Positions 1 through 9,465 of a DNA stretch of 64,000 bases are shown one piece after another. Made by a program: the position numbers and the translations under genes. The DNA is from Kutzneria viridogrisea (GTDB lineage: Bacteria > Actinomycetota > Actinomycetes > Mycobacteriales > Pseudonocardiaceae): positions 496,001 to 560,000 of the forward strand of contig JACJID010000001.1 in assembly GCA_014138725.1 (NCBI GenBank), written 5' to 3'. The notes beneath the pieces were generated by a model, which was not told the DNA's origin, did no database searches, and worked only from the letters and a program-made list of their open reading frames with translations. Position 1 is the stretch's first letter. Every line of letters begins with the position of its first letter.

Positions 1-1
1 G

Positions 2-136
2 CGCATCCTCATCCTGCCCGCGCTGCTGGCCCTGCTGGGCCGCGCCAGCTGGTGGCCCTCCCGCGCCGCGCGCAGGGCGGCCACCGCGCCTGCGCCCGCC
101 GAGACCACCGCCAGGCTGAGCCAGCCGATCCGGTAG
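2..136 (+). CDS. MMPL-family membrane exporter, C-terminal end only
   Basis: The reading frame enters from the left edge and stops with TAG at 134-136. The 44 residues visible start with a hydrophobic stretch (ILILPALLALLG) followed by R-A-S-W-W-P, which resembles the usual last membrane helix and the G-x-x-x-W-W motif at the end of MMPL (RND-type) lipid exporters, then a short Ala/Arg-rich tail. MMPL proteins export lipids and polyketides across the membrane. Its position directly upstream of the ACP suggests it exports the cluster product. The call rests on a short fragment. Confidence 0.6.
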   Translation, partial: RILILPALLALLGRASWWPSRAARRAATAPAPAETTARLSQPIR

Positions 137-158
137 TGCACAACCGATCGGCTCTCCA

Positions 159-198
159 GCGCGATGTCCCGGGATCCCCCTTCTCCGGGACATCGCGC
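159..198 (+). terminator. Perfect 14-bp inverted repeat after the exporter gene
   Basis: GCGCGATGTCCCGG (159-172) pairs perfectly with its complement at 185-198 across a 12-base loop. It begins 22 bases after the exporter stop codon and 110 bases before the ACP start. There is no T-tract, as is common for GC-rich actinomycete stem-loops. A terminator or mRNA-stabilising stem is most likely. Just downstream, CCTAT (212-216) and ATAGG form a second short inverted repeat, and TATAGG occurs twice (about 225-242), which may mark the promoter or operator of the ACP transcript. Confidence 0.5.
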
Positions 199-307
199 GC
201 CGCCGTCGCCCCCTATGGGAAAAATATAGGAGCCCGTATAGGTCCCGGTGCGAGTCTCCTCCCGCGGGCCACCGGACCGGCCCGCCAATCACGCGGGAGA
301 GACGAAC

Positions 308-583
308 ATGACCACTGCGAATGCCAACGCGTCCACCGGTGTCGGCGACGAGCTGCGGGCCAAGGTGAAGGAGATCGTCTGCGAGATCCTGGAGATCGAC
401 CCCGAGGAGATGACCGGGGAGAGCCTGTTCAAGGAGGACCACGGCGCTGACTCGATGGGTGCCATCGAGATCCTGTCCTCCCTGGAGCGCACCCTCGGCG
501 TGGACATCGACCAGAGCGAGCTCGCCCGCATGGTCAACCTCGACGGGGTCATCGCCGTCGTCGCCGAGGCCATGGCCGCCTGA
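308..583 (+). CDS. Acyl carrier protein
   Basis: A 91-residue carrier protein of the PP-binding family. The phosphopantetheine attachment site is Ser49 in the motif G-A-D-S-M-G, and the surrounding helices (I-C-E-I-L-E-I-D before, I-E-I-L-S-S-L-E after) are typical. ATG at 308 was chosen because it follows GGGAGAGAC; an upstream in-frame start would add a non-conserved Arg/Pro tail. It is the first gene after the intergenic hairpin and would carry the growing chain for the ketosynthase 28 bases downstream. It is a discrete ACP, as in type II systems. Confidence 0.93.
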   Translation: MTTANANASTGVGDELRAKVKEIVCEILEIDPEEMTGESLFKEDHGADSMGAIEILSSLERTLGVDIDQSELARMVNLDGVIAVVAEAMAA

Positions 584-611
584 GCCGACACCGAGCAGGG
601 GGGAGGACCGC

Positions 612-1832
612 ATGGACAGCGCGCGCGAGCCGAGGCGGGTGGTCGTCACCGGACTCGGTGTGGTGACCAGCATCGGCACCGGGGTCGGGGAGTTCCTGAC
701 CGGGCTGAGATCGGGCCGCAGCGGGGTCAAGCCGATCACCTCGTTCGAGACGGCGGGCTACGCGCACGCCAACGGGTGCGAGATCACCGACTTCGATCCG
801 GCGCGGCGGCTGCACGAGGCCGGTGCGGAGGAACTGGGCCGTGCGGGCCAGTTCTCGGCGGCGGCGGCGCGCATGGCCGTGGCCGACGGGGCGATGCCCG
901 TGCGGGCGCTGCGGGAGGAGCGCGTGCTGGTCTCCGTGGGGACCACCGACGGCGAGTCCCGCGACCTGGACCGGCTGGCGATCCTGGACTACCAGGACGG
1001 GCCCGCCCACCTGGCGCGGCGCTCGCCAGCGGGCAGGCTGTCCAGTGCCATCGTGCGCGAGCTCGGACTGTCCGATGTGGAGGCCGTGACCATCCCGACC
1101 GCCTGCGCCGCGGGCAACTACGCCATCGGGCACGGCATGGACGCCATCCGCGCCGGTGACGTGGACGTGGCCCTGTGCGGCGGGGTGGACGCCCTGTGCC
1201 GCAAGACCTACGCCGGGTTCTACCGGCTCGGCGCGATGGCGCCGGAGGTCTGCCAGCCCTTCGACCGGGACCGCAAGGGCATCCTGGTCGGCGAGGGCGC
1301 GGGCATCCTGCTGATGGAGAGCCTGGAGCACGCCCTGGCACGAGGGGCGCGCATCTACGCCGAACTGCTCGGCTACGGGCTGACCTGCGACGCGCTCAGC
1401 CCGGTCGCACCGGACCAGGACAGCCTGGCCCGCTGCATGCGGCTGGCCCACGAGAACGCCGGGGTGAAGCCGACCGACATCGACTTCATCTCCGCGCACG
1501 GCACCGGTACCAAGGCCAACGACATGACCGAGGTGGCGGCCATCCGGCAGGCGTTCACCGACGCGCCGCCGCCCACGGTGTCCATCAAGGGCATGCTGGG
1601 CCACGCCATGGGTGCCGCGAGCGCGCTGGGTGCCGCCGCCTGCGCGCTGGCGATCACGGAGGGCTTCATCCCGCCGACGATCAACCACCGGGAGACCGAC
1701 CCCGAGTGCCAGGTGGACTGCGTGCCCAACCAGGCGCGGCCCGCCGAGGTCAGGGTGGTGCAGAACAACGCGCTGGCCTTCGGCGGCAACAACGCGGTGC
1801 TGATCCTGGGACGGTACGGGACCGCGGCATGA
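612..1832 (+). CDS. Beta-ketoacyl-ACP synthase (KS-alpha-like), catalytic triad intact
   Basis: A 406-residue FabF/type II PKS ketosynthase that extends acyl chains by decarboxylative condensation. The thiolase-fold signatures are clear: N-terminal V-V-V-T-G-L-G, nucleophile Cys165 in T-A-C-A-A-G, His296 in S-A-H-G-T-G-T and His331 in G-M-L-G-H-A-M-G. The ATG at 612 follows GGGGGGAGG. The stop overlaps the next ATG by ATGA. No acyltransferase is encoded nearby, so malonyl loading would have to come from the fatty acid synthase transacylase, as in other type II systems. Its probable partner is the degenerate KS at 3552-4685. Confidence 0.94.
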   Translation: MDSAREPRRVVVTGLGVVTSIGTGVGEFLTGLRSGRSGVKPITSFETAGYAHANGCEITDFDPARRLHEAGAEELGRAGQFSAAAARMAVADGAMPVRALREERVLVSVGTTDGESRDLDRLAILDYQDGPAHLARRSPAGRLSSAIVRELGLSDVEAVTIPTACAAGNYAIGHGMDAIRAGDVDVALCGGVDALCRKTYAGFYRLGAMAPEVCQPFDRDRKGILVGEGAGILLMESLEHALARGARIYAELLGYGLTCDALSPVAPDQDSLARCMRLAHENAGVKPTDIDFISAHGTGTKANDMTEVAAIRQAFTDAPPPTVSIKGMLGHAMGAASALGAAACALAITEGFIPPTINHRETDPECQVDCVPNQARPAEVRVVQNNALAFGGNNAVLILGRYGTAA

Positions 1833-2620
1833 CGGCCTTCCCAGTGCTCCGCAGGAAGTCCACATCTGACAGTCCTGTTCGGACATTGCTGCTGCACGGC
1901 CTCGGCTGCACGAACGCGATGTGGGACGAGTTCGTGGTGCACGCGGACGGGCGGCTGGAGCTGTGGGACGTCACCCTGCCCTGGCACGGGGTGGACGACC
2001 CGCGGTGGAGCCACGGCGAGGACCAGGCCACGGCGCTGGCCGAGGTGCTCGCCGGGTTCGACGCGGTCCTCGCGCACTCCTACACCGCGGGGCTGCTGCT
2101 GGAGGTCTTCGCCGAGGGACTGTCGCCAGCCGTGCCCTCGGTGCTGACCAACGCCTTCTACCGGGCCGGTGCCGAGCAGTTCGACTGGTCCACGATCACC
2201 TACTACCTCAACGACTTCCACCTGATCTTCGCGGAGGCGCTGCGCTGGGGCCCCGCCGCCCGGCTGACCGAGCAGCAGCGGTCCAAGCTCGCGCTGCGGT
2301 TGCGCGACCAGATCGGCCCGCACGGCTGGGTGCGCTTCTTCGCGACCTACCTTCGTTCGTCCACACTGGACCTGAGCGAGGTCCGCGCCCCGCAGCTGGT
2401 GCTGTCCGCCGCGTGCGACATCGCCGCCCGCGCCGAGGACGGCCGCGCGCTGGCCCAGGCCCTGCCCGAGGGCCGGTTCGCCGAGCTCGCCGACTGCGGG
2501 CACTTCCCGATGCTGGAGCGGCCCGAGCGGTTCGCCCGCCTGGTGTCGGACTTCCTCAGCGACGCGGCCGGTTCCTGGTCGCCGCACACCACCGACGTTG
2601 CCTGTCTGGAGTTGACGTGA
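1829..2620 (+). CDS. Alpha/beta hydrolase, possible type II thioesterase or chain-release enzyme
   Basis: A 263-residue alpha/beta-hydrolase fold protein. The oxyanion strand L-L-L-H-G-L-G is at residues 19-25, the probable nucleophile elbow reads A-H-S-Y-T (a variant of G-x-S-x-G), and the C-terminal catalytic His is in D-C-G-H-F-P. It starts inside the stop of the ketosynthase (ATGA) and ends with GTGA into the next gene, so translation is probably coupled. In this setting hydrolytic editing or release of acyl chains from the ACP is likely. The exact substrate cannot be read from sequence. Confidence 0.8.
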   Translation: MTAFPVLRRKSTSDSPVRTLLLHGLGCTNAMWDEFVVHADGRLELWDVTLPWHGVDDPRWSHGEDQATALAEVLAGFDAVLAHSYTAGLLLEVFAEGLSPAVPSVLTNAFYRAGAEQFDWSTITYYLNDFHLIFAEALRWGPAARLTEQQRSKLALRLRDQIGPHGWVRFFATYLRSSTLDLSEVRAPQLVLSAACDIAARAEDGRALAQALPEGRFAELADCGHFPMLERPERFARLVSDFLSDAAGSWSPHTTDVACLELT

Positions 2621-3555
2621 ATCCTGTCGTCACCACCGCGCCCGCCCCCGCAGTCACGCGGGTGGAGCTGCGGCCCCGCTACGAGGGCTCGAACATCTGC
2701 ACCTGGATCGGGTTCAAGCACGTCAACTACCTCGTGGAGGAGGCGGTGCTGGACCACCTGCGTCAGCGCGGCCTGCCCGCGGGCCGGTTGTACGAGCGCC
2801 ACGGCATCTGCGTGGACCTCAGCTCGATCGACACCCGGATGTGGACCGCCTACCACATCGACGACCTGGCCGTGGCCACCGTGCGCCAGCTGGAATCCGA
2901 GGACCACCGGCTGCATTTCCTGGTCGAGATGACCGCCGAGCGGGAGACCTCGGTGAAGACGGTGACCGCGCGCGTGGCGGTGACCCTGCGGCAGGACCCG
3001 CGTGGCTTCCCCGCGGAGCCCGCCCCGGTCGAGGTGGCCGCGAACCTGGTGCCCAGGCTCGGGCCCTCGGCGGAGCCGACCCTGCCAGCGGGCGCCGACC
3101 CGGTCGCCCAGCTCACCAAGGGGCACAACGCCTTCGCGTGGAGCTGGCGCATCCCCTACCCGTACTGCCACTTCACCGAGCGCCTGCAGATGTCGGGCTA
3201 CCTGCGGCTGATGGAGGAGGCGGTGGACCTGTTCCTGGCCGACCGCGGGGTGTCCATCCACACCCTGCTCTCGGAGCAGAACTGGATCCCGGTGGTGCCC
3301 AGCTCCTCGGTGGAGATGCTGGCGGAGGTGGGCATGGAGGAGGAGCTGATCACCGTGTTCACCGTGGAGACGGTGTTCAAGCGGCTCACCTACACCGCCC
3401 GCATGGACTGCTACGTGCGGCGCGATGGCGTGCTGGTGAAGACCGCGACCGGGCGGATCACCCACGGCTACGCGGTGATCGAGAACCGGCGCGACTGGCG
3501 CCAGGTGGACTTCGACGACCGCCTGCTGACCGCGTTGCGGGGGAACCAGCGGTGA
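2617..3555 (+). CDS. Double-hotdog thioesterase-like protein
   Basis: A 312-residue protein with two hotdog-like halves. The first (about 20-140) carries the helix-plus-turn H-V-N-Y-L-V-E-E-A and a strand region V-T-A-R-V-A-V-T-L. The second (about 170-300) carries a 4HBT-like segment, M-S-G-Y-L-R-L-M-E-E-A. Such tandem hotdogs are acyl-CoA/ACP thioesterases or dehydratases. The GTG start at 2617 overlaps the upstream stop. With two separate FabZ-like proteins further down, a thioesterase role is more probable than a third dehydratase, but neither is proven. Confidence 0.7.
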   Translation: MNPVVTTAPAPAVTRVELRPRYEGSNICTWIGFKHVNYLVEEAVLDHLRQRGLPAGRLYERHGICVDLSSIDTRMWTAYHIDDLAVATVRQLESEDHRLHFLVEMTAERETSVKTVTARVAVTLRQDPRGFPAEPAPVEVAANLVPRLGPSAEPTLPAGADPVAQLTKGHNAFAWSWRIPYPYCHFTERLQMSGYLRLMEEAVDLFLADRGVSIHTLLSEQNWIPVVPSSSVEMLAEVGMEEELITVFTVETVFKRLTYTARMDCYVRRDGVLVKTATGRITHGYAVIENRRDWRQVDFDDRLLTALRGNQR

Positions 3556-4685
3556 GCGCGCCGACCGCGATCGCCACCGGCGAACTGGTGCTGTCGGCCT
3601 GGTCGGCGGTCTCGCCCTTCGGGGTGGGCCGCGAGCCCTTCCGCGAGGGCCTGCGCTCGGGCCGCTCCGGCATAGCCGCGCTGGACGCCGAGGCCTTTCC
3701 CGGCCCGTACACCACCGCCGGGCTGGTGCCGGACTTCAGCGCCGCGAAGTACCTGGGCCGCAAGGGAACCCGGTTGATGGACCGGCTCACCGCGCTGGCC
3801 GTCACCGCCGTGGGCGGCCTGGTCGAGCAGTGCCGGGACGACCTGTCCGCGGCCCCGGAGCGGGCCGGGCTGGTGCTGGGTACCGGCTGGGCCAGTGTGC
3901 AGAGCATCATGGACACCACCAGGGACTCGGTCAACGGGGAGAAGCCCTACCACGTGGACCCGGCCAAGTTCCCGAACACGGTGATGAACAAGGCGGCCGG
4001 GCAGAGCGCGATCTGGCACACCATCAAGGGGCCCAACACCACCATCTCCGGGGACTGGCTGACCGGGCTGCTCGCGCTGAGCTACGCGACCCGGCTCTAC
4101 CGGGGCGGGCACTGCGATCTCGTGCTGTGCGGGGCGGTGGAGGAGTACTCCACGCAGCGGGCCTGGCTGGACTGGCACAGTGGCGAGGCCGGTGGGGACG
4201 GGGCAGCGGCCCTGGGTGAGGGCGGGGCCTTCGTCCTGCTGGAGTCCGCGGAGTCCGCGCGCCGGTCCGGACGCGGCCCGCTGGTGCGGCTGGCGGGCAC
4301 GGGGTTCCGCTCCTGCCAGGACGGTGCCGGGGTCCGGGACACGCTGGAGACCTGCGTGCGCGGCACCCTGCGGCGCGCGGGCGTCAGCCCCGAGCAGGTC
4401 CGGCTGATCGCGCCCGCCGATCTGCCCGGCCCGGCCGGTGCGGCCGAGGACGAGGCGCTGACCGTGGTCTTCGGCGCGGACAACGCCTCGTGCCGCCGGA
4501 TCCACTGCCGTGCGCAGCTCGGCGACACCACCGCGGCGGCGACGGTCTTCCAGCTGGCGGCCGCGCTGGCCGAGGTGGAACGGGGAGCGGTGCACGACAC
4601 GGGCGAGTACGCGCTGGTGACCGGGATCGGCCGGGACGGCATGGTGGGCTGTGCGCTGCTCGGCGGCTGCGGGGACCCGGCATGA
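3552..4685 (+). CDS. Degenerate ketosynthase, chain-length-factor-like (KS-beta)
   Basis: A 377-residue ketosynthase homologue that lacks all three catalytic residues. Aligned on the conserved S-x-x-x-x-x-G loop (S-G-D-W-L-T-G at 166-172), the nucleophile Cys is Trp169; the first His region reads A-P-A-D-L-P and the second A-Q-L-G-D-T. Type II PKS chain-length factors usually carry Gln in place of Cys, so Trp is unusual. The gene is shorter than the KS-alpha upstream and is embedded in the same overlapping operon (GTG at 3552, ATGA at its end). It most likely pairs with the KS at 612-1832 and sets chain length. Confidence 0.8.
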   Translation: MSAPTAIATGELVLSAWSAVSPFGVGREPFREGLRSGRSGIAALDAEAFPGPYTTAGLVPDFSAAKYLGRKGTRLMDRLTALAVTAVGGLVEQCRDDLSAAPERAGLVLGTGWASVQSIMDTTRDSVNGEKPYHVDPAKFPNTVMNKAAGQSAIWHTIKGPNTTISGDWLTGLLALSYATRLYRGGHCDLVLCGAVEEYSTQRAWLDWHSGEAGGDGAAALGEGGAFVLLESAESARRSGRGPLVRLAGTGFRSCQDGAGVRDTLETCVRGTLRRAGVSPEQVRLIAPADLPGPAGAAEDEALTVVFGADNASCRRIHCRAQLGDTTAAATVFQLAAALAEVERGAVHDTGEYALVTGIGRDGMVGCALLGGCGDPA

Positions 4686-5044
4686 GGGGCTGGCCGGTGC
4701 GCGTCACCGAGGACGCGGGCGATCGCATCAGGTCGGTGGTCGAGATCGCGGCGAACGACCCGGTGTTCGAGGGCCACTACCCGGGTTTCCCCATCCTGCC
4801 CGGGCTCTACCTGGTGCAGTACGTGGACTCCACCGTGCGCGCCGTGCGCTGTGTGCCGGGCCTGCGCATGGTCGCGGTGGAGCGGGTCCGCTTCCTGCGA
4901 CCGGTCCGGCCCGGGGGCGCGGTGTCGGTCGAGATCGGCGTGCGGGACGAGGAAGCGGACGGGTTCCGTTGCAGCGCAACGGTGTCCACTGGAACCGAGG
5001 CGGTCTGTGAGATGCGGCTGCGCTACCGGCAGGAGGCGGCATGA
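4682..5044 (+). CDS. FabZ-like hotdog dehydratase subunit A
   Basis: A 120-residue single hotdog protein. Residues 31-41 (G-H-Y-P-G-F-P-I-L-P-G) match the FabZ/FabA active-site motif with His32 in place. The acidic partner that follows the P-G in FabZ is Gln46 here, so the classical His/Glu pair is incomplete. It is shorter than FabZ (about 145) and overlaps both neighbours by 4 bases. Together with the next gene it may form a heteromeric dehydratase, as described for aryl polyene ApeI/ApeP-type pairs; that pairing is inferred from layout. Confidence 0.82.
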   Translation: MRGWPVRVTEDAGDRIRSVVEIAANDPVFEGHYPGFPILPGLYLVQYVDSTVRAVRCVPGLRMVAVERVRFLRPVRPGGAVSVEIGVRDEEADGFRCSATVSTGTEAVCEMRLRYRQEAA

Positions 5045-5517
5045 CCGGGGTGGACCGGATCAAGGCGCTCATCCCGCACCGGTACCCGATCCTGCTGGTG
5101 GACCGGGTGTCCGAAGTGGACCCAGGGCGGACCTTGGTGGCGCACAAGGCGGTCACGGTGGCCGAGCCGTGCTACGCGCACCTGCCCGAGGACGCGCCCG
5201 CACAGGCCTACGCCTACCCGGTGAGCCTGCTGCTGGAGTCCTGGGCGCAGTCGGCGGTGATCCTCGCCTGCTGGCTCAAGCCCAACCCGGACGTGTTGGC
5301 GGGCAAGGTGGAGCTGGCCGCGGGCCTGCGCGGTGCCGAGCTGCTGGCCCCGGTGTACCCGGGTGTGGTGCTGGAGCACCGGGTGCAGGTGCTGCGCGAG
5401 GTGGACGAGGCGGCCGTGGTCGCGGGCAGCACCCTGGTGGACGGCGAGACCGTGCTGCGGGTCGCCCAGTTCACGGTGGCGCTGCGCGACTCCTCGGTGC
5501 TGGGGGTGGGGGTGTGA
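5041..5517 (+). CDS. FabZ-like hotdog dehydratase subunit B
   Basis: A 158-residue FabZ-type protein. The N-terminal block I-P-H-R-Y-P-I-L-L-V-D-R-V (11-23) is the FabZ signature. The catalytic helix retains Glu66 in L-L-L-E-S-W-A-Q, but the loop before it is rebuilt: His47 sits in A-H-L-P and the F-P-G that usually follows is missing, with five extra residues before the Glu. It is thus complementary to the preceding protein, which has the His motif but no Glu. It would dehydrate 3-hydroxyacyl-ACP to the trans-enoyl form. Confidence 0.82.
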   Translation: MTGVDRIKALIPHRYPILLVDRVSEVDPGRTLVAHKAVTVAEPCYAHLPEDAPAQAYAYPVSLLLESWAQSAVILACWLKPNPDVLAGKVELAAGLRGAELLAPVYPGVVLEHRVQVLREVDEAAVVAGSTLVDGETVLRVAQFTVALRDSSVLGVGV

Positions 5518-6254
5518 CCGCGCGGCCAGTGGCGCTGGTGACCGGCGGTTCCCGCGGGATCGGCCGCGCCGTGGTGACCCGGCTCGCCGAGGACGGCTAC
5601 GACCTCGCCTTCTGCTACCGGTCCAACGCCGAGGCGGCGGCACTGGTGGCCAAGCTGGCCGCCGACGCCGGTGCGGCGGTGTTCTGCGAGCAGGTCGACG
5701 TCGCCGAACACGGCGCGGCCAAGAAGTTCGTGCGTGCCGCCGAGCGCGAGCTCGGCCCGATCCGGGCAGTGGTGGCCAACGCGGGCCTCGTGCGGGACAA
5801 CCCGTTGGTGCTGCTGGGACAGCAGGACTGGCAGGACGTGCTGCGGGTGAACCTGGACGGGGTCTACAACATCTGCTCGGCCGCGGTGTTCGGCATGGTC
5901 AAGCGGCGCGCGGGCACGGTGATCACCATGTCCTCGGTCGCCGGGGTGCACGGCCACGCCACCCAGACCAACTACTCCGCGGCCAAGGCCGGGGTCATCG
6001 GTTTCACCAAGGCCCTGGCCAAGGAGGTCGGTCCGTACGGGATCCGGGCCAACGTGGTGTCGCCCGGCTTCATCGAGACGGACATGACCGCCGCGCTGTC
6101 CCAGGAACGGACCGAGGGGCTGGCCGCGAGCATCCCGCTGCGCCGGTTCGGCGGCCCCGGCGAGGTGGCCGACCTGGTGTCCTTCCTGGTCTCCGACCGG
6201 GCCTCCTACATCACCGGGCAGGTGCTCGGGGTCGACGGCGGCCTCGTGCTCTGA
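5514..6254 (+). CDS. 3-oxoacyl-ACP reductase (FabG-like)
   Basis: A 246-residue classical short-chain dehydrogenase. The NADPH-binding motif T-G-G-S-R-G-I-G is at residues 9-16, N-A-G near residue 87, and the catalytic Ser, Tyr and Lys lie in M-S-S-V-A-G and Y-S-A-A-K. The C-terminus S-P-G-F-I-E-T-D-M and Y-I-T-G-Q-V is the FabG signature. It would reduce the beta-keto group after each condensation by the upstream KS pair. The GTG start overlaps the previous stop. No enoyl reductase lies beside it, which favours a polyene product. Confidence 0.92.
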   Translation: MTARPVALVTGGSRGIGRAVVTRLAEDGYDLAFCYRSNAEAAALVAKLAADAGAAVFCEQVDVAEHGAAKKFVRAAERELGPIRAVVANAGLVRDNPLVLLGQQDWQDVLRVNLDGVYNICSAAVFGMVKRRAGTVITMSSVAGVHGHATQTNYSAAKAGVIGFTKALAKEVGPYGIRANVVSPGFIETDMTAALSQERTEGLAASIPLRRFGGPGEVADLVSFLVSDRASYITGQVLGVDGGLVL

Positions 6255-6280
6255 GCCGCACCACGAAAGCGAGGTACGCC

Positions 6281-6988
6281 ATGGCCAAGCCCAGAACACC
6301 GAGGTTCTACTTCTCCCTGCGCAGCCCGTACTCCTGGCTGGCCTACCGGGACCTGCTCGCCAGGCACCCGGACCTGGTGCCGCTGCTGGACTGGCGGCCC
6401 TACTACGAACCCGACGAGCACAGCACCCGGCTGATCACCGAGCTCGGCGGGGACCTGCCCTACACCGACATGTCCCGGGCCAAGCACCTGTACATCCTCC
6501 AGGACGTGGGCAGGCTCGCGGCCGAGCGTGGGCTGGAGCTGAGCTGGCCCGTGGACAAGCAGCCGGTCTGGGAGGTCCCGCACCTGGGTTACCTCCACGC
6601 CCACCGGCACGGCCTGGGCGCGCGGTACGTCGACCTGGTCTACCGGGCCCGGTGGGAGCAGGGCCGCGACATCTGCTCGCGGGAGACCATCGGCGAGATC
6701 GGCGCCGAACTCGGCCTGGACCCCGCGGCGATCGCCGCCGCCAGCGAGGACGAGCAACTGCGGGCCGAAGGCGCCGCGGTGATGGTGCAGGCGGGCCGGG
6801 ACGGCGCCTTCGGCGTGCCGTTCTTCGTGCACGGCTTCACCCGGTTCTGGGGCGTGGACCGGCTGGACGCCTTCGCCGCGCACGTGCGGTCGGCGGCGGC
6901 ACCGGCCCAGCGGCTGCCCGAGCCGGTGGCCGGTGCGGTCGGGCTGGGCCGCTCGCCCGACGACGGGCACGCCGGGGGCTGCGGGTGA
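6281..6988 (+). CDS. DsbA-like / 2-hydroxychromene-2-carboxylate isomerase family protein
   Basis: A 235-residue thioredoxin-fold protein of the DSBA/HCCA-isomerase family. The family opening F-Y-F-S-L-R-S-P-Y-S-W-L is at 9-20, and the closing cis-Pro strand reads G-V-P-F-F-V followed by F-W-G-V-D-R-L-D. There is no CxxC, so it is not an oxidoreductase. In reducing type II PKS clusters for cinnamoyl lipids, homologues isomerise a polyene double bond before ring closure; a similar role here is inferred. It has its own RBS (GCGAGG) after a 26-base gap, and its last codons overlap the next GTG. Confidence 0.82.
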   Translation: MAKPRTPRFYFSLRSPYSWLAYRDLLARHPDLVPLLDWRPYYEPDEHSTRLITELGGDLPYTDMSRAKHLYILQDVGRLAAERGLELSWPVDKQPVWEVPHLGYLHAHRHGLGARYVDLVYRARWEQGRDICSRETIGEIGAELGLDPAAIAAASEDEQLRAEGAAVMVQAGRDGAFGVPFFVHGFTRFWGVDRLDAFAAHVRSAAAPAQRLPEPVAGAVGLGRSPDDGHAGGCG

Positions 6989-8121
6989 GCGAGGACCTTG
7001 GCCTGCCCGAACTGCGCGAGCTCGCCAAGTCGTTCTGGGCCAAGGAGGTCACCCCGCACCAGCCCCGCTGGCGGGCCGCGCACCAGGTGGACCGCGAGCT
7101 GTGGACCACCGCGGGCGGTGCGGGCTTGCTCTGCGTGGGCGTGCCCGAGCCGTACGGCGGCGGCGGGGGGTCCTTCGCGCACGAGGTGGTGCTGGCCGAG
7201 GAGCAGGCCAGGGCCGGTGACACCTCGTGGGGCCGCACCGCGCACGACATCGTGGCGCGGTACCTGCTGCTGCACGGCACCGAGCGGCAGAAGACCCGCT
7301 GGCTGCCCAGGATGGCCGCGGGCGAGCTGGTCGGCGCGCTCGCGATCACCGAGCCGGACGCGGGCTCCGACGTGCAGGCGATCACCACCAGGGCGCGGCG
7401 CGTCGCGGGCGGCTACCTGCTGCACGGGGCGAAGACCTTCGTCACCAACGGGATCCACTCCGGGCTGGTGCTCGTGCTGGCCAAGGTTGCCGACCCGGAG
7501 CGGCGCACGCCGCCGCTGTCGCTGTTCGTGCTGGAGACCGCCGGGCTGCCCGGCCTGCACCGGGGGCCCGCGCTGGAGAAGATCGGCCTGCACGGCCAGG
7601 ACACCGCCGAGCTGTTCCTGGACGGGGTCGAACTCACCGCGGAGCACCTGCTCGGCGAGGTGGAGGGGCGCGGGCTCGCCCAGTTGCTGCCGCTGATCTC
7701 CCGTGAGCGCCTGCTCATCGCGGTGACCTCGGTGGCGGTGATGGAGACCGCGCTGGCCGAGACGGTGCGCTACTGCAAGCAGCGCCGCGCCTTCTCCCGG
7801 CCGCTGATGCGCTTCCAGAACACCCAGTTCGTGCTCGCCGGGGCGGCGGCCCAGGTCGCCGCGAGCCGGGCGCTGCTGGACTCGACCGTGGCCGCGGAAC
7901 TGGTCCGGGGCGCTAGCATGGCGGAGGTCGCACTGGCGAAGCTGTGGTGCACCGAACGGTTGGGCGAGGTGCTCGACAGCTGCCTGCAACTGTTCGGCGG
8001 CTACGGCTATATGAGCGAGTATCCGGTCGCACGAGCCTGGGCGGACGCCAGGGTCGCGCGGATCTTCGGCGGTACCAACGAAATCATGCGCGAGATCGTC
8101 GCGGCCTCACTGGGGGAGTGA
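6985..8121 (+). CDS. Acyl-CoA dehydrogenase, long-chain type
   Basis: A 378-residue FAD-dependent acyl-CoA dehydrogenase. A-I-T-E-P-D-A-G-S-D is the FAD/substrate strand motif and F-G-G-Y-G-Y and I-F-G-G-T-N-E-I-M the C-terminal signatures. The base position used by medium-chain enzymes (E of E-G-T) is Gly here. The Glu in R-E-R-L-L-I-A matches the catalytic Glu of the long-chain (LCAD) branch, so the enzyme is probably active. In the cluster it could desaturate an acyl-ACP or starter thioester. GTG at 6985 overlaps the isomerase stop. Confidence 0.88.
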   Translation: MSEDLGLPELRELAKSFWAKEVTPHQPRWRAAHQVDRELWTTAGGAGLLCVGVPEPYGGGGGSFAHEVVLAEEQARAGDTSWGRTAHDIVARYLLLHGTERQKTRWLPRMAAGELVGALAITEPDAGSDVQAITTRARRVAGGYLLHGAKTFVTNGIHSGLVLVLAKVADPERRTPPLSLFVLETAGLPGLHRGPALEKIGLHGQDTAELFLDGVELTAEHLLGEVEGRGLAQLLPLISRERLLIAVTSVAVMETALAETVRYCKQRRAFSRPLMRFQNTQFVLAGAAAQVAASRALLDSTVAAELVRGASMAEVALAKLWCTERLGEVLDSCLQLFGGYGYMSEYPVARAWADARVARIFGGTNEIMREIVAASLGE

Positions 8122-8122
8122 G

Positions 8123-8794
8123 ATGGTCAGATGGTTCGCCCCGAGCGGCTCGGGTTGGTCCCCGAGGCTGTTCGAGCTGTACTTCACCCGTTTCCGGTCC
8201 GGCGTGGGCTTCCGCCAACAGGAGCAGCGCGCCGTGCTCGACGCGCTGGAACCCCGCCTGGCGCCCGGCCAGCGCGTGCTCGAACTGGGCAGCGGGACCG
8301 GGCACTACACGCTGGCCCTGCACGAGCGGGGCGCCCGCGTGCACGCCCGCGACGCCTCGCCCGCCATGGTCGACTACCTGGTGCGGCGGGTCGCGCGGGA
8401 GGCCCCCGCCGGGATCGACGCCGGGTTCGGCCGGTTCCCCGACGACCTGCGCGTGCGGGGCACCTTCGACGGGGTGCTCACCGTGGGCATGGTCAACTAC
8501 GTGCAGGACCTGCCCGCCGCCTTCACCGCGCTGGCCGCCCTGCTTGTCCCGGGCGGCTGGCTCGTGTTCAACGTGCCCCGTGCCGACCGGTCCGGTCGGC
8601 GCTACGCCCGCCTCGAACTGCTCACCCGCAGGCGTGCCCACCTGCGGGCCCCCGGCGAGGTCGAACACGCGGTGACCGCGGCGGGCCTGCGGCTGGCGCA
8701 CGGCCCGGTGGACGCGGGCATCACTTCGGTGTACCGCTGCGAGGCGCCGTTGCGGCATCGGCCGTCAACTGATCGGCGTAATCTGCGGGTGTGA
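8123..8794 (+). CDS. SAM-dependent methyltransferase
   Basis: A 223-residue class I methyltransferase. Motif I is V-L-E-L-G-S-G-T-G (about 55-63), with an acidic residue ending the second strand (A-R-D-A-S-P-A-M) and a post-motif strand D-G-V-L-T-V. The ATG at 8123 follows the acyl-CoA dehydrogenase stop by one base, and its own stop overlaps the PhzF gene (GTGA). The acceptor, a carboxyl, hydroxyl or carbon of the cluster product, cannot be inferred from sequence. It was assigned to the cluster by co-directional overlap on both sides. Confidence 0.85.
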   Translation: MVRWFAPSGSGWSPRLFELYFTRFRSGVGFRQQEQRAVLDALEPRLAPGQRVLELGSGTGHYTLALHERGARVHARDASPAMVDYLVRRVAREAPAGIDAGFGRFPDDLRVRGTFDGVLTVGMVNYVQDLPAAFTALAALLVPGGWLVFNVPRADRSGRRYARLELLTRRRAHLRAPGEVEHAVTAAGLRLAHGPVDAGITSVYRCEAPLRHRPSTDRRNLRV

Positions 8795-9465
8795 CGGATC
8801 TTCACGTGCTTCGGGTGTTCTGCGGTCCGGATGGCCGGTACGGCAACCCGCTCGGTGTTGTGCTGGACGGCGCGACCGTTCGGGGTGAGCGGGCCCGGCA
8901 GGACCTGGCCGCGCGGCTCGGCTTCAGCGAGACCGTCTTCGTCGACGACGCCGCGGAGGGCCTGGTCGACATCTACACGCCCAGCGTGCGGCTGCTCTTC
9001 GCCGGGCACCCCCTCGTCGGCTGCTCCTGGCTGCTGGGACAGGTGGGCGCCGCGCCCACCGTGTTCCGGCCACCGGCAGGCCCGGTGCCGACCTGGCAGG
9101 ACGGCGAGTTCACCTGGATCGCGGGCCGACCGGAGTGGGCCGCGGGGCGGCGCACCGAGCGGCACGTGTCGGTGCGGGCGGTCGAGGCGCTGCCCAGCCC
9201 GCCCGCGGGACAGGGCTGGCTGTACGCCTGGGCCTGGGCGGACGAGGGCGCCGGCCGGGTGCGGGCCAGGGCGTTCCCGCGCAGGGGCGACGCGATCGTG
9301 GAGGACGAGGCCACCGGTGCGGCGGCGATCGTGCTCACCTCGGAACTGGGCCGGGCACTGGACATCCGGCAGGGTGCCGGATCGCAGATCCTGACCGAGG
9401 TGGGTCCCGAGGGCACGATCGGGGTCGGCGGCCGGGTCGTCCTGGCGGAGGTCCGCGCCCTGTGA
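8791..9465 (+). CDS. PhzF-like isomerase/epimerase
   Basis: A 224-residue member of the PhzF fold. The family marks are G-N-P-L-G-V-V-L near residue 18, the G-F-S-E-T-V-F-V strand with the catalytic-type Glu, the glycine-rich A-G-H-P-L-V-G-C turn, and the late D-E-A-T-G-A-A-A-I motif. It is shorter than most PhzF proteins (about 260-300), mainly in the middle. PhzF enzymes catalyse double-bond shifts by proton transfer. It ends the overlapping run; the 157 bases that follow contain no gene or clear signal. Confidence 0.82.
   Translation: MTDLHVLRVFCGPDGRYGNPLGVVLDGATVRGERARQDLAARLGFSETVFVDDAAEGLVDIYTPSVRLLFAGHPLVGCSWLLGQVGAAPTVFRPPAGPVPTWQDGEFTWIAGRPEWAAGRRTERHVSVRAVEALPSPPAGQGWLYAWAWADEGAGRVRARAFPRRGDAIVEDEATGAAAIVLTSELGRALDIRQGAGSQILTEVGPEGTIGVGGRVVLAEVRAL

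Follow-up and report, generated by a model that had tools for sequence, protein, structure and literature searches.

A one-pair, highly reducing type II polyketide operon with a GGCG-ended isomerase, the putative acyl-tail half of a peptide cluster in Kutzneria viridogrisea

We analysed a 64,000-nucleotide stretch of the Kutzneria viridogrisea genome (10.2 Mb), positions 496001-560000 of contig JACJID010000001.1 (C1 below). We call this stretch the window and use its own coordinates for the operon genes. A single run of twelve plus-strand genes (308-9465) lies near its left end and has the content of a highly reducing type II polyketide synthase (PKS; Table 1). The original prediction, made from the DNA letters, had listed a discrete acyl carrier protein (ACP), a ketosynthase (KS), a chain length factor (CLF), a FabG-type ketoreductase (KR), two FabZ-like dehydratases (DH1 and DH2), a DsbA-type isomerase, an acyl-CoA dehydrogenase (ACAD) of the long-chain (LCAD) type, a methyltransferase and a PhzF-like protein behind the tail of an MMPL transporter gene. 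All of these were recovered, along with two genes it had missed, which encode an alpha/beta hydrolase (ABH) and a tandem-hotdog protein (DHD). The overlaps are indeed mostly of four bases (8 of 11 junctions); the exceptions are ACP-KS, KR-isomerase and ACAD-methyltransferase, which are 28, 26 and 1 bases apart. Neither an acyltransferase family nor, judging by the best NCBIfam match, an enoyl reductase was found among the cluster genes scanned, as had been stated. Pfam was run on all operon proteins and NCBIfam on all but the methyltransferase and the PhzF-like protein. The isomerase gave no NCBIfam match, and the KR also matched the short-chain dehydrogenase model PF13561.

Table 1. Features of the operon and its left flank, in window coordinates unless prefixed with C1
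Feature	Position	Strand	Basis or remark
MMPL-family transporter gene, 3' end	1..136	+	PF03176, 236 bits
Discrete ACP	308..583	+	PF00550, 47.5 bits
KS	612..1832	+	Active-site Cys in TACAAG; HGTGT and GHAMGA present
ABH	1829..2620	+	PF12697
DHD, 312 aa, FatA/FatB acyl-ACP-thioesterase-like fold	2617..3555	+	4HBT_2; Foldseek
CLF	3552..4685	+	Active-site Cys absent (SGDWLTG)
FabZ-like DH1	4682..5044	+	GHYP His present; Glu position is Gln
FabZ-like DH2	5041..5517	+	ESW Glu present; His motif absent
FabG-type KR	5514..6254	+	Pfam and NCBIfam
Isomerase, DsbA-fold, HCCA-isomerase-like	6281..6988	+	Pfam; structure comparison
Isomerase C-terminal arm, disordered, residues 210-235	6908..6985	+	pLDDT under 50
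Isomerase C-terminal GGCG-COOH motif, residues 232-235	6974..6985	+	Comparison of relatives' ends
ACAD, LCAD-type	6985..8121	+	IFGGT motif; RERL Glu present
S-adenosylmethionine-dependent methyltransferase	8123..8794	+	Pfam; unmatched in related loci scanned
PhzF-like protein, short	8791..9465	+	Covers only first part of PF02567; unmatched in related loci scanned
NRPS, three modules, 3882 aa	C1:473405-485053		Pfam and motifs
P450	C1:485838-487061		Left flank
MbtH protein	C1:487058-487264		Left flank

The KS was most similar to 6kxd_A (533 bits), followed by 9s5h_B (366), with the best FabF-type entry at 264 bits. The CLF likewise matched 6kxd_B best (219.5 bits; next 9s5h_C, 82). Entries 6kxd-6kxf, which we take to be the ishigamide KS-CLF, are thus the closest solved relatives of both proteins; the window differs from the ishigamide-type system in adding an isomerase and a nonribosomal peptide synthetase (NRPS) cluster. 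The KS retains its Cys and both His motifs, and its partner CLF lacks the active Cys. The pair is accompanied by the discrete ACP, FabG-type KR and FabZ-type DHs of the polyene class. By sequence, the window has just one KS/CLF pair, which belongs to the polyene class of highly reducing type II PKSs; matches to 6kxd far above FabF uphold the earlier assignment to a reducing type II system of the polyene/cinnamoyl class.

Related clusters were collected through the CLF (11 loci) and through the isomerase. The isomerase search of plasmids gave 122 records, mostly proteobacterial and of the 2-hydroxychromene-2-carboxylate (HCCA) isomerase type. Whole genomes of the order gave 33 of 397 at E<=1e-20, and genomes of the class 18 of 394 at E<=1e-15; the window's genome is part of both sets, as is one further genome, G015. 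The order ACP-KS-ABH-DHD-CLF-DH1-DH2-KR-isomerase is also found in L015 of Lentzea, L016 of Kutzneria and L018 of Saccharopolyspora, with 37-79% identity per protein, which excludes a chance grouping. Lentzea albidocapillata subsp. violacea DSM 44796 carries a syntenic cluster. The ACAD gene stands directly behind the isomerase gene in the window, L015 and L016, whereas L018 has the same order without an ACAD there.

Only one KS/CLF pair is present within C1:400501-560000 (159.5 kb), where KS2, CLF2, KS3 and CLF3 genes gave no match beyond the window's own pair. Other loci share this one-pair form: of 50 loci scanned (stretches of 5-40 kb), 16 have a single KS of this kind and lack a KS2 match; in the same scan L122 and L132 have two KSs, and in L020, L066, L119 and L130 the KS is missing or lies outside the stretch. 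In loci with several pairs, such as L027, the corresponding KS and CLF stand apart with extra KS/CLF genes between them. By gene order, the window's pair corresponds to the outer pair of such loci, and we would equate it with KS1-CLF1 in the naming of PMC9381841.

The left part of the cluster spans approximately C1:465502-496000. From left to right, the flank holds genes for a LysR regulator, an amidase, a TauD enzyme, tryptophan 2,3-dioxygenase (TDO), a formamidase-like hydrolase and an FkbM methyltransferase, followed by two SARP regulators on the opposite strand and the NRPS. Genes for an ABC permease, the P450, the MbtH protein, an ABC ATPase and a regulator lie to the right of the NRPS gene. 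Next comes a minus-strand block for a Na/H exchanger, a tryptophan halogenase and a second TauD-like protein, and then the MMPL gene (733 aa, C1:493935-496136), which starts in the flank and whose last 136 bases open the window. The halogenase scores 841 bits against RebH and 824 bits against Thal, to both of which it is close. Since the NRPS and tailoring genes fill this flank, we read the operon as the half of an NRPS cluster that makes the acyl tail. The original prediction had named a fatty-acid or siderophore operon to the left as the finding that would overturn it; the flank instead holds NRPS, halogenase, P450 and kynurenine-pathway genes, so that the PKS cluster stands, as one half of an NRPS hybrid and not as a free-standing PKS. 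To the right, a DJ-1/PfpI gene, a MarR gene (opposite strand) and an amidohydrolase gene are taken as outside the cluster.

The NRPS has the domain order C-A-T-E-C-A-T-C-A-T-TE from Pfam and motifs, in which the E domain is our reading of an HHLVVDG motif. A-domain codes were taken from positions aligned with a stretch of GrsA, with the last position (Lys) assumed. They are DIWQVTADDK, DFWGVAGVGK and DLTKMGEVGK in the window, DIWEMTADDK, DFWGVAGVGK and DLTKVGEVGK in Lentzea, DIWEVTADDK, DGWGVAGVSK and DLTKVGEVGK plus a further DLTKMGHIGK in Kutzneria, and DIWEVTADDK, DAWGVAGVGK and DIWEVTADDK in Saccharopolyspora. Streptomyces sp. NBC_01351 has DVWEINLDDK and DAFAVTGVGK (modules 1-2 read) and a stand-alone DLTKMGHIGK. 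The codes are similar across these four genera except for module 3 in Saccharopolyspora. From code tables, module 1 is presumably specific for a diaminobutyrate (Dab)-like residue, module 2 for a tryptophan- or kynurenine (Trp/Kyn)-like residue and module 3 for Asn. The TDO and formamidase-like genes occur in the window, in Lentzea and, distantly, in NBC_01351 (28% and 47%). Relatives of the P450 were found in the Lentzea flank (75%), Saccharopolyspora (66%) and NBC_01351 (62%), and none in the Kutzneria stretches scanned. The taromycin-type 4-chlorokynurenine pathway uses a tryptophan halogenase, TDO and a formamidase-type hydrolase. All three functions have counterparts in the window's cluster, which differs in its three NRPS modules and type II PKS tail. 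A second, separate NRPS (L012; C1:449766-455044 of the same genome, G000) with A codes DAFWLGGTFK and DVQFVAHVVK lies about 11 kb left of the amidase gene and is not assigned to the cluster.

The ACAD is LCAD-like (280 bits to mitochondrial LCAD, 293 to 2pg0) and is 63% and 59% identical to its Lentzea and Kutzneria counterparts. In all three, IFGGT replaces the Glu-bearing motif, with Gly at that base position, and the Glu of the RERL stretch, which we take to be catalytic, is retained; family, Glu and Gly together are those of an LCAD-type enzyme. We scanned 118 related loci at E<=1e-5, many of them only 3.6-4 kb long or overlapping; the set omits the operon-holding loci and the first own-genome hits and includes four other loci of the host genome. 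Some ACAD match occurred in 13 of the 118, above 100 bits only in L015 and L016, while none matched the methyltransferase or the PhzF-like protein. Of the genes that had seemed an unfamiliar combination, therefore, only the ACAD belongs to a shared design. The methyltransferase and PhzF are ruled out as parts of that design. The Lentzea and Kutzneria clusters have an acyl-tail and NRPS design like the window's and lack both of these genes.

DH1 and DH2 are complementary. In alignments that left out rows covering <60% or scoring <50 bits, the GHYP His of DH1 was present in 12 of 12 rows, with its Glu position E in eight, D in three and Q in the window. DH2 had the ESW Glu in 13 of 13 rows and the His motif in none. 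FabZ active sites combine a His and a Glu from two subunits, and for this reason the two proteins are best read as a heterodimer with one predicted composite site. Joint action is supported by L020 (2165-3181) and L025 (11990-12847), which carry both in one open frame. In most relatives, whose DH1 has an acidic residue there, a second active site may exist. The ABH had matches in 11 of 16 loci scanned and the DHD in 35 of 50. The DHD had no sequence match among solved structures; its model (nine sequences) had a pLDDT of 84 and resembled acyl-ACP thioesterases in Foldseek (E ~1e-12, TM ~0.6). An editing or release role for either protein would be a guess.

The isomerase carries the most unusual feature of the cluster. 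Its nearest folds are HCCA isomerases, FrnE and kappa-class glutathione S-transferases (GSTs), and a profile alignment pairs S15 with the Ser of the 2imd SPF motif, which we take to be the glutathione-site (G-site) Ser; fold and Ser are those of the HCCA isomerase/kappa GST group. The DsbA-type fold that had been named therefore holds, without the CXXC motif: C132 and C234 are the only cysteines, and a disulfide oxidoreductase role is ruled out. Compared with 2imd, 3fz5 and kappa GSTs, the window's protein has an additional C-terminal arm ending in Gly-Gly-Cys-Gly (GGCG), which lies beyond the reach of the alignments to 2imd and 3fz5. FrnE (5cnw, 5cp1), whose C-terminal cysteines take part in its chemistry and whose structure listing includes a C239S mutant entry, has a related fold; the window's isomerase differs in lacking CXXC and in its tail.

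This ending is conserved. From 79 loci we obtained 63 distinct isomerase relatives, one of them cut by the locus end. The C terminus was exactly GGCG in 49 of the 62 complete proteins, 44 of these 49 have an Asp at -9, and the arm linker is variable. S15 is present in all 50 armed proteins, window included, and Cys234 is the sole cysteine fixed among them (C132, 37 of 50). As a control, none of eight other operon proteins compared had four fixed last residues, the nearest being one Gly at -4 in the KR (16 of 16). Of 40 sampled plasmid matches, 31 were proteobacterial and aligned only to query residue 195-206; the six HCCA isomerases among these whose ends were compared all stop right after the fold, armless. 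L065 and L067 have two isomerase genes each, one armed and one unarmed. Three small conserved proteins (h1-h3) are encoded between the DHD and CLF genes of L028 (15710-16845), with matches in L021, L022, L120, L068, L071 and L130. Pfam finds no match for them, and a reading as DsrE/F/H-like proteins was dropped on that ground. Their position would fit a role as the three-protein cyclase described for kitacinnamycin. The idea that they supply the thiol where the isomerase is unarmed was not supported: armed L025, L066, L068, L071 and L130 also match h2/h3, and unarmed L078, L079, L118, L121 and L133 have no such match.

We next consider which thiol the hosts make. The window's genome has the mycothiol gene MshC (709 bits) and no glutathione-synthetase match, either to PF02955 (E<=0.01) or to TIGR01435 (E<=1e-20). 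Of 48 further isomerase-bearing genomes found, 44 were searched for thiol genes, and MshC was over cut-off in every one. We propose, from sequence conservation and fold, that the GGCG arm may be a built-in glutathione substitute.

The pathway as we would reconstruct it starts with malonyl units, which either come from the cellular malonyltransferase or are loaded by the ACP itself (self-malonylation). KS/CLF, KR and DH1-DH2 would repeat condensation, ketoreduction and dehydration on the ACP to give a conjugated acyl chain of approximately C8-C10, with a single dehydratase site made up of the DH1 His and the DH2 Glu. The isomerase would convert one E bond to Z. Its arm would reach into the protein's own glutathione site, presenting a thiol that adds to, and then leaves, the polyene, so that free glutathione would not be needed. 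The Z-polyene could be used directly, or could close to a ring with the ACAD or the cluster P450 as candidate aromatising oxidant. The first C domain would accept the acyl-ACP, the NRPS would build acyl-(D-Dab-like)-(Trp/Kyn-like, probably chlorinated)-Asn, the TE would release it and a TauD enzyme may hydroxylate Asn. The product would most likely carry a polyene tail on a small, probably chlorinated, peptide. We assign a probability of roughly 0.7 to the operon being the acyl-chain half of the NRPS cluster with this full pathway, built-in-thiol isomerase included.

Several observations weigh against this reconstruction. An AlphaFold2 monomer model (eleven sequences) leaves the arm disordered and free, not docked. 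The 13 armless relatives must work otherwise, and arm absence does not track h1-h3. On a quick tree built without the arm and rooted at midpoint only, six changes of the trait are required, no fewer than four when judged by starred branches; it is for this reason that repeated loss from an armed ancestor is our preferred reading. PF02955 was over cut-off in eight of the 44 further genomes (one at 162 bits, two at 74, five at 38-45), and nine of 45 genomes, the host among the 45, had a weak TIGR01435 match, none over cut-off, so that glutathione is not excluded everywhere. Among the isomerases read, the eight PF02955-positive genomes have an unarmed isomerase only in three (G058, G686, G699) and an armed one in five (G065, G240, G279, G629, G671). 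The 36 negative genomes have unarmed proteins only in five (G097, G278, G619, G644, G720) and both kinds in G180 and G208. These counts lean weakly towards arm loss being tied to glutathione synthesis. In L026, L030 and L123 the KR has no neighbouring DH gene. The ACAD is absent from most relatives, in which aromatisation, if any, therefore needs something else. Halogenase similarity to the window's is only 35-38% in Kutzneria and NBC_01351. Kynurenine in module 2 is weakened by Kutzneria and Saccharopolyspora, which have the common code; no TDO or formamidase-like gene was found in the stretches fetched from them, and kynurenine is therefore likely for the window and Lentzea only.

Published systems, cited here from excerpts of the papers, give the context for the alternatives. 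PMC9381841 describes isomerase-dependent chain extension with generally two or three KS/CLF pairs and calls the isomerase YsfG glutathione-dependent. PMC6510318 gives 51 candidate clusters, an isomerase hypothesis and a mining rule of an isomerase beside KS/KR. The cyclases named in PMC9321520 are Kcn17-18-19 and a youssoufene enzyme, with no homologue in epoxinnamide. PMC10054270, PMC13311259 and PMC11446937 added little. The comparison was made through these papers and through the related loci. Like the window, the skyllamycin, WS9326A, kitacinnamycin and epoxinnamide clusters and the youssoufene/globisporamic acid PKS have polyene-class KS, CLF, KR, two DHs, ACP and an isomerase, and the first four also have an NRPS partner. 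The isomerase adjoins KS/KR genes in the window as in cinnamoyl clusters. The window differs from these systems in having one KS/CLF pair instead of two or three, an ACAD behind the isomerase and a three-module NRPS with tryptophan halogenase and kynurenine genes.

We give about an even chance to a linear, ring-free Z-polyene cap, with the ACAD doing something else, for instance introducing a further double bond or oxidising an amino acid bound to a carrier protein. The single KS/CLF pair and the lack of a recognised cyclase in the 159.5 kb agree with it, as does the proposal of the epoxinnamide authors, in the excerpts of PMC9321520, that one pair plus the isomerase gives a (2E,4Z,6E,8E)-C10 polyene. 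The ACAD also matches a prolyl-PCP dehydrogenase, at 183 bits, far below the cut-off of 650. A different cyclase could be missed: candidates were sought by position (h1-h3).

The scales are similarly level on whether the arm is catalytic at all. It might be a partner docking tag, a regulatory disulfide or a mycothiolation site, which would suit its disorder in the model and the relatives that manage without it. Set against this, the conserved residues form a free C-terminal Cys-Gly, like the end of glutathione, on a glutathione-binding fold.

A cinnamoyl product, formed by 6-pi electrocyclisation of the Z-polyene and aromatisation of the ring by the ACAD or P450, for example to an o-methylcinnamoyl cap, seems slightly less probable than a linear one. 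Aromatisation of a cyclohexadiene on the thioester is a plausible role for the ACAD, judged from its family, with the P450 as the alternative; P450-mediated aromatisation is reportedly known for another polyketide, as far as the title of PMC10265476 tells. The core genes agree with those excerpted for cinnamoyl peptides (PMC6510318, PMC9321520, PMC9381841), the ACAD gene immediately follows that of the isomerase in three clusters, and epoxinnamide has its ring without homologues of known cyclases (PMC9321520). Conversely, the window has one pair in 159.5 kb where cinnamoyl systems generally have two or three (PMC9381841), and h1-h3 have no match there, nor do KS2/CLF2 and KS3/CLF3 apart from the window's own pair. 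The predicted polyene or cinnamoyl chain thus holds as to class; the cinnamoyl part is unconfirmed, with one KS/CLF pair and no ring-closing gene recognised.

An ordinary fatty-acid, siderophore or free polyunsaturated-acid operon, as the FabF, FabG and FabZ families might suggest, is very improbable: KS and CLF are far nearer 6kxd than FabF, the CLF lacks its active Cys, NRPS and halogenase genes lie alongside, syntenic clusters occur in other genomes, and the left-flank gene content rules out a free fatty-acid or siderophore operon.

Other loci deserve mention. At 8498-10720 of L011 in the host genome (G000:C9:301000-320000), a truncated KS resembles the window's at 52% over 144 residues and an ACP does so at 45%; a DDE transposase gene is near them, and the locus looks like a relic of a second PKS of the window's class. 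L026, on a linear plasmid of Streptomyces sp. NBC_01351, has its own trpC, trpD and genes for anthranilate synthase next to those for the halogenase, TDO and NRPS, and DH genes are absent beside its KR. Another halogenase-bearing one-pair family with a Na/H antiporter comprises L030, L031, L019 and L129, in which no DH match was found near the KR; L030 also carries sbnA/sbnB and an ornithine-carbamoyltransferase-like gene.

The original prediction stands as an observation, as does most of its interpretation: by its gene content this highly reducing type II PKS is of the polyene/cinnamoyl class, and it combines one KS/CLF pair with a dehydrogenase. In the literature covered, which is partial and includes two key papers as reported by papers citing them, neither the GGCG arm nor a matching product is described; the novelty of the arm is not certain. 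Clusters with an acyl-tripeptide plan, a Trp/Kyn-like residue and, in several members, a halogenase form an NRPS family found in Lentzea, Kutzneria, Saccharopolyspora and Streptomyces, and are a target for isolation. In this PKS class, the isomerase decides between linear polyenes and possible closure of a benzene ring. YsfG is called glutathione-dependent in the excerpts of PMC9381841, whereas the sampled hosts are apparently mycothiol makers. A built-in thiol arm, if true, would resolve this mismatch and would be a new way of replacing a missing cofactor.

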